Shown here: one piece after another, positions 1 through 57,542 of the stretch
Position numbering within the stretch: position 1 is the first letter of the stretch
Layout of the letters: every line of letters begins with the position of its first letter
Assembly: GCA_026419785.1 (NCBI GenBank)
Contig: JAODTK010005646.1
Location: 62,001 to 126,000 of the forward strand
Length of the DNA: 64,000 nt
Direction of reading: 5' to 3'
From: Sclerodactyla briareus
Lineage: Eukaryota; Echinodermata; Holothuroidea; Dendrochirotida; Sclerodactylidae
Program-made: the position numbers and the translations under genes
Notes under the pieces: model-generated
Databases searched by the model: none
The model's input: the letters and a program-made list of their open reading frames with translations, nothing else
Told to the model about the DNA's origin: nothing

Positions 1-620
1 AAAAACCCCTGACCTGACCAACAATAGGTTCCTGTACCCCCATAAGAAAGCTATAAAACCAAATTTCAACTTGAGCAACCAACCATTCTGGACTTAGCGT
101 GTTTACAAGGTTTCCAGAATTTGAGACTCTGTTGACCTCAGATGACCTCTGACCTGACCCCAAAACATAGGTTCATGTACTCATCATGGGGAACACAATA
201 CCAGTATGACTCCATCCATCCAGGTGGGGTCGATTATCGTGTTTTACAAGCCAATTGGCCGAAATATCGACTTTTTGAACAAATTTCTCTATTTTTGACG
301 AAATCCACACCCCTGACCTGAAACAAAACAATACTCTGGGTTCCTGTACTCCCCATAGAAGAGCTATACACACCAATTTCAACAACTTGATCTGACCACC
401 ATTCTGGACTTATCGTGTTTAACAATGTTTTCGACTTTGACCTCTAGTGACCCTCATGGAGCCCTCTACTGACACAAAAACAATATGATCATGTCCGCAT
501 CATAGGGAACACACTACCAAGTATGAGCCTGATCTACTCACACCCTGATCATTATCGTGTTTACAGCCGGCGGGTCACACACACACCTACACCACACAAC
601 CACACACCACACACACACAC
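1..620 (+). repeat. Degenerate tandem repeat, about 140-165 bp unit
   Basis: Four imperfect units start near 11, 150, 313 and 470. Each opens with a GACCTGACC-like block, has GGTTCMTGTACTC near the middle, then a TATCGTGTTTACA block. The array ends in a CA-rich tract (about 575-620). Diverged relatives with the same TATCGTGTT and CATTATGGGGA words lie near 19.6-20.4 and 21.24-21.64 kb, and on the minus strand near 57.64-57.86 kb, which also borders a (GT)n tract. Similar words are widespread in marine invertebrate genomes from my general memory. The class of element is unknown. Confidence 0.6.
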
Positions 621-1129: not shown

Positions 1130-1357
1130 CTTTTCTGAACAAACGGTGCATGTTGTAACCACATCAGTGTAAAGGTCGTCTGGTAATGTACAGCATTTCC
1201 TGTCTTCTTCGATTCGTGTTTCTCGATCACACTCGTCAGAGTGTCGCCACACGTCCTGGCTACGTTCTCCAGAATATGCATGGGTGCGATCAGACTGGGC
1301 CGATATACCGTCCTTGTGCCAGCGGACACTCAGCTCGTTGAAACTGCCTTGGTTAAC
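1130..1357 (-). CDS. Candidate internal exon, cysteine-rich, of the DUF4062/NACHT-WD-like gene
   Basis: A pyrimidine-rich acceptor ending TTTCACTTTCAG precedes base 1357. A donor AAAAG/GTAATG follows base 1130. The 228-bp interval is open in one frame for exactly 76 codons. The peptide starts VNQGSFNELSVRWHKDG and ends with cysteine pairs KCC and CTVC near residues 54 and 70-73. I do not recognise a domain. Its entry phase (0) does not match the exit phase I propose for the exon at 1478-1607, so an intermediate exon, another donor or a sequence error is needed to join them. The gene presumably continues left, out of the window. Confidence 0.5.
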
Positions 1358-1477: not shown

Positions 1478-1607
1478 TGTGCGTCGTAAGGAGCTCCTTT
1501 GATACCATGTTTGACTTTTTCGACGTCTCTCCCGAGTATTGGACGTCTGACCATCGAGGCATAGCACTTATTTTTAGATATTATCATGTCTAGCTCGTTA
1601 GCCATCA
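1478..1607 (-). CDS. Candidate internal exon of the DUF4062/NACHT-WD-like gene
   Basis: The exon begins after TTTTAATGAG and encodes a peptide with ELDMIISKNKCYASMVRRP and GRDVEKVKHGIKGAPYD. It enters with two bases of a split codon, exactly what the upstream exon at 1715-1946 leaves (ATT T/). The proposed donor is CGCACA/GTGCGT at 1478, which is only moderately good; the frame stays open further (to about 1375). No family domain is recognised in this piece alone. It is placed in this gene by phase and by being the next open minus-strand segment. Confidence 0.45.
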
Positions 1608-1714
1608 CTCATTAAAACTAACGTTGAATAATTGTGAGCATGCATCAAAAAACTTTCATAGGAAAAATCTGCTGATGACTGTAACCCTTTCAACTTCTTG
1701 ATTTTTATTCTTAC

Positions 1715-1946
1715 AAATGAAATTGAACAGTCCTACCATGTTTCTGATCGTTTGATATTTGAAAGCCTGGACTCTGTCGTAACGTTCATCATCGACCTCT
1801 GATTTCATCTGTAGCATGTCTAGATATTCCTTGCCGCGAAGTCCTGAAGGTTCCTCCTTAGATCAGGATGACCCTGCTCCAGTGCGAGCACATTGTCCTC
1901 TTCATTCATCGAAGATACACCTGCCACACGAATTCCTTCTCTTGTA
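1715..1946 (-). CDS. Candidate internal exon of the DUF4062/NACHT-WD-like gene, one frame break
   Basis: The acceptor is TCTATTGATGTCTGAAG before 1946 and a strong donor TTTCATTT/GTAAGA ends it at 1715. The first half reads MNEEDNVLALEQGHPDL and RRNLQDFAA. The second half reads KEYLDMLQMKSEVDDERYD and QAFKYQTIRNMVGLFNF, but in the next frame. One extra base near 1840 (in GCAAGGAA) would join them. The exon starts with one base, completing the codon left by the 3321-3425 exon, and ends with one base, matching the next exon. The charged, helical composition looks coding. The single missing base may be an assembly error or a real mutation. Confidence 0.5.
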
Positions 1947-3320
1947 CTTCAGACATCAATAGAATAAATATTATTCAGTCTCATAAGGGACTCACAACAA
2001 TAAACGACATCAGTCATAGAGTTTAGGAATCAAACAATATTGTTAGTGAAGGTCACGTGGAATGGGAACTCACAGTTGTAGAATCGCTTCGAATTGCTGA
2101 AACTCAGCAATATATTGGAATTAGAGCGTGTTTGATAATCCCAGAACTCAAACAACTATGAAGGTTGTGATAATGACATACCTGTGCATTTATATCTCGT
2201 ATACTGACAGGGGACAGAACAGTTTGGGGTGGGGGGTTCCGTGATCCCTACTTCTACGAGCGCGTCCATACCAATTTTGATGTGAATGACACAACAACGT
2301 TTTGCTTTGATGTGGGGCACGGTTTGTTCTTTTTTGTTCGAGGCGTTTTATATCATTGTTCCAGATGGTGAACTATAATAAAATTAGTTTGAACCCTGTC
2401 TAATATATCAATGTATCACATAAGATCGGTCTTCACGGATTTTTTCTCCACAGGAGTTAGGTGTTTAGAACCATCACTTTCGTCTGGGCCGAATGGAAAG
2501 AATCCAGTATGGCGTCCACAACGAATACCCCTCTGCGGTTAAGTAGGCCGCAGCTTTCGCCTGTTTTTTCATACCCTCTAGTTCTTCACAGATTCTTGGC
2601 TTGAGGTGGATACGACAAAGACATCAATACCTGTACATCACTATACAGTTGTTAGTCAGTTCTGTCCCCGTAAGTAGTGGCTCTTCAAACGAGCACTGGG
2701 ATGGGTCCCCCGGTTCCCCCCCCCCCTCCCTCCCCCGGTGTATCATCATCACGGAGTAATCGATTGTTGGGAAGCGGTTCGCTCATTGGTCAGGCTCCAA
2801 TCTAGTTCGAAGCCCATCAGAAGCGGCAGGGAATTGTCCTCAGTACTGGGCGGGCAAGGCATGTCTCCTGGATTCCCACTCACCGCACGGGTATGATTGG
2901 GGACCTCGTGGGAGTGATTGTAAGAGCAATGCGCGTTGTCTCTATACTGTTTCTGACAAGTCCCTGATTTTCATGGGGGATATCTGAAACGCCTCGAGCA
3001 TGTGGAAAAGGCGCTATTTGAGCACTGAATAGTACTTGACTCACATGTCACCAAACGAAGAGTCCCAGCCGCACGTTTCGTTTGTGACCAATGTAAGTCC
3101 GGAAGATTGCTGTTATGATATCGAGTATCCGTCTGTGGATCATCGCCCATTGGTTCTTGGCTCGTTGCTTCTGTTCTGTCTGAACTTTTCAGTTCCGTCA
3201 GCTCACAGCTGAATGAGGAACTTATAGGTCAGCGAGTTTATTTATAATTGATTCTTTAAAATAATTATCTGATATATTCACATGCAAGCAGGAGTAGTGA
3301 CTAATGACTGGTTACTGTAC
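1947..3320. other. Probable intron, no feature recognised
   Basis: This stretch lies between two candidate minus-strand exons. It has a G-rich patch near 2225 and a C run near 2709-2736, but I see no repeat family or exon with good splice sites. Confidence 0.4.
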
Positions 3321-3425
3321 CTGATCTCCTGGAGGAAGAAGGCTGGTGGAATGTTATTCTCGTCTAACTTGTACCACGTGTCTATGATGTCACGACTCTC
3401 GTCGCATTCACTTTTCCGCGGCTCT
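3321..3425 (-). CDS. DUF4062-region exon (NACHT/WD NWD1-like)
   Basis: This 105-bp exon has an acceptor CGTACAG and a donor GAGATCAG/GTACAG. It encodes ECDESRDIIDTWY followed by KLDENNIPPAFFLQEI. A 'W-Y-x-x-D-E-N-x-x-P-P-x-[YF]-x-L' block is characteristic, from my knowledge of the family, of the DUF4062-type N-terminal region of NWD1/NWD2, TRANK-like and related NACHT-WD proteins, where it follows the 'G-x-x-Y-G-x-x-P-x-P' block. Both blocks are present in the right order on this strand (see 5667-5806). Entry with one base and exit with two bases fit the neighbouring exons. This is one of the two exons that identify the gene. Confidence 0.7.
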
Positions 3426-3887
3426 CTGTACGATTACGTCATAATCTTCATGGGTATCCCTTGAGGTTAAACAGTAATGAACTGATGAAGGCAAGTCGTT
3501 TTTGTATGTATGCATATATCAATTTGGTATCCGGTCAGATGGATGGGGTAGCCAGCAGAATCACGTACCCCTCTCCTTTCCCTTTCGCGCTATCTATACC
3601 ATCAAGTACCATAACAACAAACGGGCCTCGTGTGCCTCAAAATGGACTCATGGCTATGAAATAGAGTCGTTCGGGGTTGCTTATCCAACCTGAACAGAGC
3701 GCTGCCATATACCATATGTTCACATGAACATCACCTCTATTTGTCAAATTAAGATCTCAAATCACCCTTCGAAATTTCGGATGTCGAAGGCAAAATGGAG
3801 GTCCCAGGCAGGCGATTAGCGAGATTTTGTATGGTTTCAAAAAAATATAATTGAAAAAATACCGAAACGCTACGCCATGGCACTCAC

Positions 3888-3913
3888 TCCTCCATTGAAC
3901 TCTCCTGCTCCGT
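3888..3913 (-). CDS. Candidate 26-bp micro-exon of the DUF4062-like gene
   Basis: The micro-exon is bounded by CATGTTTTCAG on one side and by GGAGGA/GTGAGT on the other. It encodes TEQESSME plus two bases. It enters in phase 0 and leaves two bases that pair with the single entry base of the 3321-3425 exon to make a Glu codon. Very short exons are easy to find by chance, so the support is the coincidence of two good splice sites with matching phases. Confidence 0.45.
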
Positions 3914-4272
3914 CTGAAAACATGAGAATAAGATGTTATTGCTTACAGCAGATGTCTTCGACTTGAGTCATGAACTTCTGTTACACATAACCTGATCCTA
4001 AGGCTAACGAAACTCACTAAGTTCTATCGCCGCCAAATCATCAAACACATGGTTAAGTCATTGCTGCATATTATTATCCAGTCTCCCAAATGACTGCTAT
4101 ATATAATAGGTAACCATGGTCGACTGGAATAATGTGTCCGCCTGTCATATCTGAAAGCATGAAGGTAATGGTGATTGTATTAGTTCAGTAGTGGCCTATA
4201 CATATTTCAAGAGATGTTCTCTTATCAGAAAACCTTCTCAAAACAAAACTTGAAAGCATCTACTGATCGTAC

Positions 4273-4293
4273 CTTCATCTCGACTGTCGTTTC
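4273..4293 (-). CDS. Candidate 21-bp micro-exon of the DUF4062-like gene
   Basis: The exon runs from the acceptor TTGTTACTCCTCAG to the donor GATGAAG/GTACGA. It encodes seven residues, ETTVEMK, with phase 0 at both ends, matching the phase-0 end of the 5667-5806 exon and the phase-0 start of the 3888-3913 exon. An alternatively used micro-exon is plausible. A short exon alone would not be convincing. Confidence 0.4.
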
Positions 4294-4819
4294 CTGAGGA
4301 GTAACAATATTAAGATATTCCTCCATTTCAGAGCGTTAACGCATGAGGCAATGACCGCAGCAGTACGGCTAGTGTTACTCTGCTAGTGTTACTATTGTTA
4401 CTCTTATGTGACTATTATGAATCAACATGTCTGCTATACAAGTATTCTGTACATCATTATATGGCAACTCAAACTTCGTCACGATTTCGGCTACACTAAC
4501 CTATAATTATTATAGAGAAGCCCCGAGAGTAGGTTGTTGTCTGAAATAATGAAAATTGTCATCTTATGCGAATAATATAATAAACAACAATATAACGAGA
4601 TAGGGAATTCCTGTACTCTTGTCACTCCTATGTAGAGAAAGAATAACCCGGATTTATTCTCAAACCTCGCCCTCAGGGGCTAACCACTAAACTGGGGAAT
4701 ATTGGTCACACAGGAACCTGAGGTGAAAACAGTAAGTGATATAATTAAATTGCCTCATAGATATTCTTCAAACAATTTAAGGCGACACAAGAGACAAAGG
4801 AAAAGAAAGAAGATGCAGC

Positions 4820-5515
4820 TTGTCGATTTTGCCTTTTTTACTTATGTACATCCGTAACGAGATTTTTGACTATATGACAGATAATGCTCACCTTCGCACA
4901 TTGGCTACTGACGGCCTCCGTACTGTAATGGTGGCGCTGTCCTCTCTGTCACAATCAACCATGAGTTCACTGTGGGAAAATGAAACCCAGTCATTTAGCT
5001 GTTGTTACTTGAAAACAATAAGTTCGTTTGTGAAATTTGGTATTTTCGGCTTGTTGGTATATACCCAAACTGGCTCGCATATCCATTTATATTTACAGAG
5101 CAATCTAAGGAGTGCTCTCCACTGCAATTTACACCAGTCGAATCAGCGACGCCCAAGAGAAGGATCGAGACACGGGGTGCATATGCACCCACTCATTTAC
5201 ACCGTGTTTTGTTTCCTTGCCAAGAGCATAATCACCACCCCACTCGCGCAGACAAGATATACACACACTCACATGTTACAAATAATAGGTATACATGAAC
5301 GGCTGCCTGATAAGCTACAACCCGTAGTTGGGAAGATGGCACTCTTTCATTTTCAACTTCTAAAATGTGGGAGGCTCGACGTTCTAATTCGAACAAATGG
5401 GTCGGGAAGTGGCAGGAACGTGCAATTAGATATTAGTGATACTATTACAGTCCGGTGTATTCCACTTGCATATCAGTCTAAATATGAAATACACTGTATA
5501 CCACATACGTGTTGA
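4820..5515 (+). other. Longest open frame of the window, probably not a gene
   Basis: A 231-codon plus-strand frame is open here without a recognisable domain. Its composition is mixed, and the 3' half overlaps CACACTCACAT-type low-complexity DNA and a CTTGCCAAGAGCATAA block resembling common dispersed repeats. It lies in what would be an intron of the minus-strand gene. I list it only because it is the longest frame. Confidence 0.15.
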
Positions 5516-5666
5516 TTTGTTGTTGAAATTACCTAAGCAATATATCAATCCATTCGTATATATGTTAGAAATATCATTACCATTTCCAGTCAGGTCATTC
5601 GATTAATTTGTTTCTTGATGTCGGTGATGGGTATTGAAGTTTAATCAATGAATTAAATCTACTTAC

Positions 5667-5806
5667 TTTACTACTTTCGCGTTCCAGACGTTTCCGATTC
5701 CTTCGAGAGACTCTTGCTCCTTCCTGATGTTTCTCTAATGATATGATAGTCTTCAATACCAAATATCTGGCAGTGGCTGATATCCTAACTTCTGTCCTAC
5801 CAGTGT
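5667..5806 (-). CDS. DUF4062-region exon with one frame break
   Basis: The exon follows the acceptor CTCTTCTGAATGCAG and ends at AGTAGTAAA/GTAAGT. It opens with TLVGQKLGYQPLPD, the 'G-x-K-x-G-Y-x-P-L-P' block that in DUF4062/NACHT-WD proteins comes directly after the hydrophobic strand ending the previous exon. After the LP the frame stops, and another frame continues with ISLEKHQEGARVSRRN to the donor. The length is 140 bp, one short of a multiple of three, so one missing base explains the break. The exit phase matches the next exon. Confidence 0.6.
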
Positions 5807-6395
5807 CTGCATTCAGAAGAGTTTGAAGGAGAGTTCATTTAGGAATAATATGTAACATTCATTCTCGTAACATTAACAAATATTTGAACTGCAACACGGC
5901 AGTTCCTTATTTTTCCCCACTAATTCAGCCAATGTACTCCATGATATGAACGACAGACTACAATACTCTTGAAGTCCGTATGGAGATAGAGCAATGCTGG
6001 CGTCCAGACCTGCATTCAGATACCAGGTGCGTGTAGTCGGGCAGTCGGGTGGTCTCGCGAGCGCGTGATGGGGTCGAGTTGCTTTGCGTAATGTTGTCGC
6101 ACATACAGAACAATCAACGTAGATACGTCGAATGTAGGAGTGCATGTTTGCGGTCTGCTTATCATCAGATCACCCTTTAATATACAGATACTACAGTACT
6201 CATTGGCATTTGCCATCACAAAACCCCTTTCGAGTTTTGAACCCGCACAAAAACCTCGCGTCGTAAGTCGCACGGCTTACTGTCAGTTCAATACGGTTTC
6301 CGTGGCTACGGTCCACCAGCCCTCATGCGGTCTTCCAGAGACCGTGGGTCTAACTACAAGCTTCCGCAAGCATTGATACCGTTGCCAGTTGTTAT

Positions 6396-6420
6396 TTTAG
6401 TTAGTTAGTTAGTTAGTTAG

Positions 6421-6460
<40 letters not shown>

Positions 6461-6468
6461 AGTTAGTT
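6396..6468 (+). repeat. (TTAG)n microsatellite
   Basis: About 18 copies of TTAG, with two places where one T is lost or extra. The tract sits in an apparent intron of the minus-strand gene, just downstream of the donor of the exon at 6613-6816. Confidence 0.95.
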
Positions 6469-6612
6469 CGAGAGATAAGGATTCCAAACCTTCACGGACC
6501 CTCCAGTGAGGTAGTTTAAAGAGGTTTAGTACATCACTCAGATTCGTTTGTGTTAGTAATTTGCGTGTCACTCAGTTAGCTAGTTGTGTCTGGAAAAGTT
6601 AAGGATGCTTAC

Positions 6613-6816
6613 CATAAAGATACGTCCCTCAGAGTGGGTTTTACATCTTTTGAGTGAGTCAATACAGTTATCTGCGTGGGAGTGGTCATCTAACCACACG
6701 TCCTTCAGTCCCCAATGAAGATCCATCACCTGTAACTCATAGCCTAGCTCTCTGCAGAATGGCCGCAGCCCGCCTAGATAACCTTGTTCATAAGATCGTC
6801 CTTTCTGACTCCATAT
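6613..6816 (-). CDS. DUF4062-domain exon, NACHT/WD (NWD1/TRANK/NPHP3-like) protein
   Basis: An excellent acceptor (pyrimidine tract ending CGTCGTTCCAG) and donor (CTTTATG/GTAAGC) bound 204 bp, exactly 68 uninterrupted codons. The peptide contains LRPFCRELGYELQVMDLHWG and then KDVWLDDHSHADNCIDSLKR, CKTHSEGRIF. This matches the family pattern 'LR-x-[YF]-C-x-x-x-G-x-E-[FL]-x-V-[VM]-D-[ML]-x-W-G ... D-D-H ... C-x-x-x-[IL]-x-x-C ... S-x-G-x-x-F' of DUF4062 N-terminal regions in NACHT-WD proteins. In such proteins this region precedes a NACHT NTPase and WD40 repeats; neither is seen here, as the gene runs off the left edge. It is the strongest host exon in the window. Confidence 0.8.
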
Positions 6817-7219: not shown

Positions 7220-7983
7220 ACCCGCATATAGCCCCACCCTACCTGCAACGTACTGGATACTAGAAACCATCATTATGTTTTTCTTTCGACTGGAATGTAC
7301 CATCAACCATCACCAGCCAAAATCTCCTGGAGCAGGCGATGGGTCGTCTTCCGTTGTGGATGTCTCACTACCAGCCGCAGAGATGGGTGGAGGTTCCGCA
7401 TCATTCCTTGTTCCATCCAACCCTCTTACCGTGTACCTGTGCTCTGACGGAGCATCTATGCGTGAGTCCGGGATCTTGTCAGCCTCGCATTGTCATTCAT
7501 CTGAGGCTATTTGCACCTGACAAATTCACTTCTGGTATCTTGCATTTTAACGTCTGAACCGTATTCTTGTTTTGTCTCTCCCCTTCATTCCGCTCTCAGG
7601 ATCGGCTGATGGAGCACCGCAACGCCTGGAGATTGCGTCTGCTGATCTGGAGATGGGCTCACCTCGTGGTCGACCAATCTGTGTAATGGAAGGCAATTTC
7701 CCATTCTTTTCTTCGCATGAGGTTAACGCTGGGATTATCACTGGTAGACTAAATTTCCGAGGTCCATTCTTTCTTGCATGGATATTCGGTAGTGTACGAC
7801 CGTCGCTAGTGGTGATATTCCTCCCACAGTCGAAATGTTTATCAGAACATATTCCTGTAGATTGATCTCTGATCCACGAGTTTGGGGCCGACCTTGGTTT
7901 TTCTGCGTCGTAGGCTTCTCCACTTCTTTCGTTCTTAGAGTAATGAACTTCCAAAGAGAGTCTACAGCTGGCGGAGTGCCTAA
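7220..7983 (-). CDS. Possible linker exon(s), low-complexity, frames broken
   Basis: The minus strand holds several long open stretches: 7547-7954 (about 135 codons, charged), 7738-7923, and a Pro/Ser/Thr/Glu-rich stretch (SAAGSETSTTEDDPSPAP) near 7290-7400. They lie directly downstream of the exon at 7984-8184 and upstream of the DUF4062 exon. I find no clear splice sites and no domain. They could be a disordered linker exon with sequence errors, or chance. Confidence 0.25.
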
Positions 7984-11731: not shown

Positions 11732-12206
11732 CTGGAGATTGGATTGAATTGTCCTCTCAGGAACACCGAGGAGAATATGAATGGTATGTCACAGTAACAA
11801 ATCCTCCAATTATATTGTGAGTACCCACTTACGTCCCCCTGCAAGTGAGAAGAGAGGATCCTCTAATCTCGCCTATATCGCAGTCAGTGGCTGTATGTTA
11901 TGGTAATTAATATTCGTCAAACTTCCTGACTCTGAAGGTGGAAGAAATGAGCGAATTGCTAGTTTTTAACAGATAATAACAGCAGAATCCAAGAGCATAA
12001 TGGAGGGAACCGATATGTACTTCCAGGAAAATGTCACCTATTGGGTATAGTGCTCTAATCCGAATCCTGTGACTTTTACGTGCTGGTTGAATAGGGTCGA
12101 GTGAGGTGTGGTATATTATGCCGTCAATAAACCCAAGGAGTTCAAGACTTCTAATGTGCCTCTATGTGCCTGCTCACACCTTTATAGGGTGCGCACATGC
12201 ACTCAC

Positions 12207-56766: not shown

Positions 56767-57030
56767 GCATATTATACGTCGACCCCTGTCATATTATACG
56801 TCGACCCCTGTCATATCATACGTCGACCCCTGTCATATCATACGTCGACCCCTGTCATATCATATGTCGACCCCTGTCATATTATACGTCGACCCCTGTC
56901 AGATTATACGTCGACCCCTGTCAAATTATACGTCGACCCCTGTCAGATTATACGTCGACCCCTGTCATATTATACGTCGACCCTTGTCAGATTATACGTC
57001 GACCCCTATCATATTATACGTCGACCCCTG
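56767..57030 (+). repeat. 22-bp minisatellite, 12 copies
   Basis: The unit is TCATATTATACGTCGACCCC plus TG, repeated 12 times without spacers, then a broken 13th (TCAGATTTTT). Variation is confined mostly to positions 4-8 and a few C/T changes. Each unit carries a GTCGAC palindrome. Since 22 is not a multiple of 3 and the unit lacks stops, all three forward frames are open and give the same 22-residue repeating peptide in three registers. Confidence 0.95.
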
Positions 57031-57542
57031 TCAGATTTTTGTTCCCCCCTTCCAAGCATTCGATGGGCAGTTCTTGATTCACGCCGATTCACTCAAGACG
57101 AACATACATCCCACGTGATATCCAAACTATTATTGTATCGACATATCATATCGTATTATATATATCATGCGCAACACCACATGGAAATTATAAAATGTTT
57201 TTTGTTTTGTATAATATATTCACAGTCGTATTGAAGAGTGACATTCTCATAATTTATATAGAATATAACATATTTTAGCTCTACAAATTCAAGCTGGTTG
57301 CAAGTGGCGGATCAGAGGCTTTACCTGTTTACAAATATACTATTTCTGTTGCCGCATTAAAAATATATTCCATATTTAACTAACTAGCGAGCAAAATAAG
57401 ACTGAAAAGATATCAAGCTCATGTTTACCTCATGCTGTAATTATGTTCCTGTTTAAATTCTTTCTCCTGTGAAAAAGAACAGAAACGGTTGGTCAAAACT
57501 TCTGAGTGCAAGTGCAAGTGAGGGGAATGTATGCTGCTAGGA

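Follow-up and report, generated by a model that had tools for sequence, protein, structure and literature searches.

A probable NWD1/NWD2-family gene with an interrupted reading frame in the holothuroid Sclerodactyla briareus

The window examined here is a stretch of 64,000 nucleotides of contig JAODTK010005646.1 of Sclerodactyla briareus (C2889:62001-126000; contig position is window position plus 62000). Near its left end a series of short exons lies on the minus strand, and these probably make up the 5′ end, encoding the N-terminus, of a single large NWD1/NWD2-family gene. An earlier sequence-only reading had proposed a gene of the DUF4062/NACHT/WD kind at this place, and in this it was right. 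The blocks CRELGYELQVMDLHWG, GQKLGYQPLP and DTWYKLDENNIPP are present in the order it gave, adjoining usable splice sites. Its exons at 6613-6816 and 5667-5806 also lie where it placed them, with good donors, and they join in phase 0/0 as GRIFM/TLVGQKLGYQPLP (a slash marks a splice junction throughout). Here and below, motif readings outside profile matches were made by eye in three frames, guided by the patterns of the family.

The gene leaves the window to the left. The parts from the P-loop onward occupy 53.5-59.2 kb of the contig, with the P-loop exon ∼10 kb downstream and two helix-turn-helix (HTH) exons ∼13 kb downstream. We scanned 66 minus-strand open reading frames (ORFs) of the left flank against Pfam, of 72 listed at ≥40 amino acids, and a second scan took in 98 further ORFs of 117 listed (a list that overlaps between loci). 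A single ORF among the 66 matches HTH_NWD1 (PF25469; cut-off 27 bits) at 4.7e-12 and 46.3 bits. The two HTH exons join in phase, the preceding exon ending AAT G/GTAGGA and the HTH exon starting CAG/CT, and the joined product of 167 amino acids matches the same profile at 6.2e-13 and 49.2 bits. Across the genome (319 Mb, 3171 contigs) PF25469 found this place alone, from two candidates scored, with one TGA upstream inside the match. Comparison of the HTH piece with the PDB gave nothing useful.

The P-loop exon, FCGRSDIIEDIKSYILSESRQPLVLHGESGAGKSS, carries GESGAGKSS and reaches AAA_16 at 6.8e-5 and nSTAND1 at 8.1e-5, both below cut-off. It follows next after the exon at 1130-1357, at about 58.97-59.13 kb of the contig and thus outside the window. 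A Walker B-like LFLILDG and VKLVISSLEEDG are also read, and a helical stretch as YHHVIADYFMGEWAGKRKPY, FEWMLMKLKATS and ELRLLSDALHLS. A WD40-like motif, ALSSDG / LLAATAYR / DDTFKLWDYED, is split over changing frames. NACHT and WD40 exons had been predicted to the left of the window; P-loop and winged-helix exons are indeed there, while the WD40 part, which we infer from such frame-broken motifs, gave no profile match. No tetratricopeptide repeat appeared in the Pfam lists of left-flank ORFs at E ≤ 0.1, in scans that included no search aimed at that repeat.

Is there another such gene in this genome? The HTH peptide led to a weak second place on contig C2980, with 28% identity at E = 0.004 and two TAG codons read through; a direct comparison with one ORF there gives 33% identity over 66 amino acids (E = 8e-4). 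Ten peptides were compared by tblastn with 13.5 kb of C2980 and with five equally long control stretches. The 56-residue core of the exon at 6613-6816 (ex2) matched C2980 at 3.5e-6 (best control 0.48) and the HTH peptide at 7.5e-7 (0.65); further matches were the helical piece at 0.004 (0.048), the P-loop piece at 0.024 (0.61), weakly the exon at 3321-3421 (ex4) at 0.025 (0.33), and a second helical piece at 0.18 (0.35). A joined query of ex2 and the following exon (ex3) gave 5.9e-6. The best control match of all ten queries was the 0.048 of the helical piece. The C2980 matches all lie on one strand and are arranged as in the window gene. A second NWD-family gene lies at G000:C2980:427963-440465, collinear with the first and with its frame also broken. 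Profiles detect it below cut-off: HTH_NWD1 at 0.0047, and on a Walker B exon AAA_16 at 0.0028 and NPHP3_N at 0.003. In the longer of the matched pieces, identity between the two genes is about 29-41%. Judged by its motifs, the C2980 gene may resemble NWD2 more.

The DUF4062 end is fainter. The sequence-only reading had proposed that the joined exons be compared with the DUF4062 profile (cut-off 24.7 bits). The joined N-terminal pieces, with frames chosen by hand, score 6.6e-4 and 20.3 bits, a weak match under the cut-off, and a two-exon peptide made without choice of frame scores 0.23 and 12.1 bits. None of seven single window ORFs matches DUF4062 at E ≤ 1. Taken singly against Pfam and the PDB, the window exons gave nothing useful beyond one cathepsin K match at 0.63, and in a search of its own genome the exon at 6613-6816 matches only itself (two candidates scored).

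Several of these results weigh against the assignment. No DUF4062 match exceeds the curated cut-off, and a PF13271 profile scan of the whole genome found none; the NACHT profile reaches only 0.084 on the P-loop exon, below cut-off; none of the 98 single-frame ORFs of the second left-flank scan matches WD40; and three of the ten queries (TLVGQKLGYQPLP, the piece from 1130-1357 and a third helical piece) have no in-order match on C2980, where TLVGQKLGYQPLP alone does nothing better than in the controls. A sceptic might go further and regard the whole as unrelated short ORFs that resemble the family to a trained eye, given that the window exons singly match no family profile and that the frames of the joined DUF4062 query were picked with the family in mind. 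Yet the HTH_NWD1 match is free of any choice of frame, and the paralogue matches are collinear, with ex2 far above its controls; chance resemblance is extremely improbable. The motifs, their order, the HTH_NWD1 match, the P-loop and the paralogue are all seen directly.

Table 1. N-terminal exons read on the minus strand of the window.
Position	Strand	Reading	Splice sites	Basis
7243..7272	-	Probable end of first DUF4062 exon: strand A, FLVSSTLQ; start not fixed	donor CAG/GTAGGG	Motif search and three-frame reading, guided by family pattern
6613..6816	-	Exon: DMESERTIL and MNKV in two other frames, then YLGGLRPFCRELGYELQVMDLHWG...RIFM	CAG/ATATGG ... TTTATG/GTAAGC	
5667..5806	-	Exon: TLVGQKLGYQPLP; in two other frames, QIFGIEDYHIIRE and LEKHQEG...SSK follow	CAG/ACACTGG ... 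AAA/GTAAGT	
about 3321..3421	-	Exon: PRKSECDESRDIIDTWYKLDENNIPPAFFLQEI (carries DTWYKLDENNIPPAFFLQEI), ending GAGATCAG	donor GTACAG; acceptor at one of three adjacent AGs	Three-frame reading
3050..3190	-	Tentative exon: KNQWAMIHRRILDIITAIF		By eye only
1478..1946	-	Further exons of the sequence-only reading (SKEEPSGLRGKEYLDM... and others), unverified		Three-frame reading
1130..1357	-	Exon: VNQGSFNELSVRWHKDGISAQSDRTHAY, then HILENVARTCGDTLTSVIEKHES and LYTDVVTTCTVCSEK, with frame changes	donor GTAATG	By eye, guided by family pattern

The exons read within the window are collected in Table 1. The limits of 1478 and 6816 that had been proposed for the gene do not hold, since a strand A end lies upstream at 7243-7272 and the exon at 1130-1357 had been overlooked. 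The former is one of six minus-strand motif matches, selected because a donor follows it; its VSSTLQ ahead of DMESER presumably corresponds to strand A of DUF4062, in line with the family pattern. A second candidate for strand A, ISSTF at 11934-11951, was dropped in favour of the 7243-7272 piece, which has the better donor. The exons proposed at 1478-1946 received no profile support (ORFs 1656-1862 and 1375-1608 have no Pfam match) and no place in the family was found for them. The ORF covering the exon at 1130-1357 (920-1369) is likewise without a Pfam match. A TTAG microsatellite at 6397-6468 lies between two exons of the gene.

The reading frame changes inside exons, while the conserved blocks, as judged by eye, contain no stops of their own. 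The earlier suggestion that the exons at 5667-5806 and 1715-1946 need one added base each allowed too few changes: by eye we count two near the start of the exon at 6613-6816 and two inside that at 5667-5806. Small exons had been held responsible for the lack of a long frame, and they are half the reason; frame slips, probably errors of assembly, cut the gene too.

Do such slips occur elsewhere in the assembly? A search for actin gave 16 matches, 12 of them in three clusters. In the cluster on C1260 model residues 229-410 are spread over three frames with one TGA, and in that at C2792:267-270 kb residues 239-410 are spread over two; the cluster at C2792:243-249 kb is unbroken. Among the four matches outside the clusters, C2088:1624-1959 holds four stops. 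For some of the actin matches on C2792 and C1260 the listed open frames span 462 to 805 amino acids, longer than actin, which may reflect runs of N. The C2980 gene shows several frame changes within 0.5 kb. Repeats were compared by BLAST within the sampled DNA, excluding alignments of <120 bases and, outside satellites, same-contig pairs <3 kb apart. Among interspersed repeats (86 alignments) there were 0.42 gap openings per mismatch, and among satellites (298 alignments) 0.52. The alignments overlap and hence are not independent counts; in neutral DNA the ratio is nearer 0.1-0.2.

We conclude that the frame breaks are probably assembly errors, which we rate as about threefold more likely than a pseudogene, because similar faults occur in the repeats, in the C2980 gene and in two of the three actin clusters. 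Speaking against it, the two HTH exons are unbroken over about 0.5 kb, and of seven tubulin matches the four above cut-off are free of stops (one of the three below cut-off holds three). Therefore the errors are not everywhere. A decaying NWD1-family pseudogene, its breaks real in the organism, would be consistent with the stop-free tubulin matches above cut-off, with the many frame changes in the exons at 6613-6816 and 5667-5806 and at 53.57-54.34 kb of the contig, and with the very uneven density of slips between parts of the gene. Decay is less readily reconciled with conserved blocks that look intact, with stops that fall at frame changes and not within blocks, with retained splice sites and two HTH exons joining in phase, or with the like slips in actin and the paralogue. 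We regard it as unlikely. Assembly error being the probable cause, the gene is probably functional in the organism and predicted to be intact.

A tandem satellite of about 10 kb at C2889:134947-144573 aligns to itself, when shifted, at ∼78% similarity with a great number of one-base gaps, the pattern expected for an unpolished stretch. A 22-bp tandem repeat at window 56768-57037 (12.3 copies, 93%) is indel-free, unlike that satellite. An interspersed repeat at window 1-528 extends left of the window and has a ∼76% match at 235.6-236.9 kb of the contig. The ORF at L012:400-981, with LHWLPVRTRIDLKFLL, resembles the reverse transcriptase of a long interspersed nuclear element.

The NWD1/NWD2 family of STAND NTPases is known, and the window gene is an ordinary member, not a new system. 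The encoded protein would run from DUF4062 (TIR-like fold) through a linker to a NACHT-type P-loop NTPase, an NWD1-type winged helix, a helical stretch and probable WD40 repeats. NWD1 and Caenorhabditis elegans QUI-1 share the DUF4062-like N-terminus, P-loop NTPase and HTH_NWD1 in this order, which the window gene appears to carry on one strand; it differs in its frame slips and in a WD40 part seen only as broken motifs, and the likeness is one of domain order. NWD2 (T05C3.2 in C. elegans) shares the order as well. In TEP1, the vault NADase (NAD+-cleaving enzyme), and in NPHP3, DUF4062 also adjoins NACHT, but the window gene has the NWD1-type winged helix that sets it apart from TEP1, and NPHP3_N scores only 0.058 on its P-loop exon. 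We found little literature on expansions of the NWD family.

By analogy with the STAND class, the resting protein would hold ADP. Binding of a ligand or partner by the WD40 part would release the ADP, exchange for nucleoside triphosphate would allow oligomerization through NACHT, and the N-terminal DUF4062 domains thus clustered could serve as scaffold or effector. The sequence-only reading mentioned a link of some such proteins to immunity; two studies of close relatives are neuronal. Nwd1 is reported to bind Paics and to affect purinosomes (PMC7186558), and QUI-1, described as the orthologue of NWD1 in C. elegans, to act in sensory neurons (PMC8871372). In a third report, DUF4062 is a TIR-like NADase fold, human TEP1 is active through E1008, and purified human NWD1, NWD2 and NPHP3 have no NADase activity (PMC13174449). 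Because of this last difference, a scaffold or sensory role such as those of Nwd1 and QUI-1 appears likelier for the window gene than cleavage of NAD+.

Could it nevertheless be an active NADase of the TEP1 kind, and not an NWD1-like scaffold? The apparent DUF4062-NACHT order is that of TEP1, and a candidate glutamate in QIFGIEDYHIIRE, after the GQKLGYQPLP block, falls near the place expected from family patterns. That glutamate sits where the frame is uncertain and was placed by eye; the winged helix is of NWD1 type, and human NWD1, NWD2 and NPHP3 were inactive in the very study that found TEP1 active. A TEP1-like activity is quite improbable, and we give equally little credence to an NWD1-type gene that, in contrast to the inactive human NWD1, would have a DUF4062 with a catalytic glutamate and function as an NADase gated by NACHT.

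Our analysis shows that a conserved gene was rightly spotted where a gene finder would probably miss it in a noisy assembly, and that a lack of long frames in this genome does not mean a lack of genes. Two NWD-family genes are added for this genome. With DUF4062 reported to be a TIR-like NADase fold (PMC13174449), they raise the question of whether any NWD1 outside mammals might have NADase activity.

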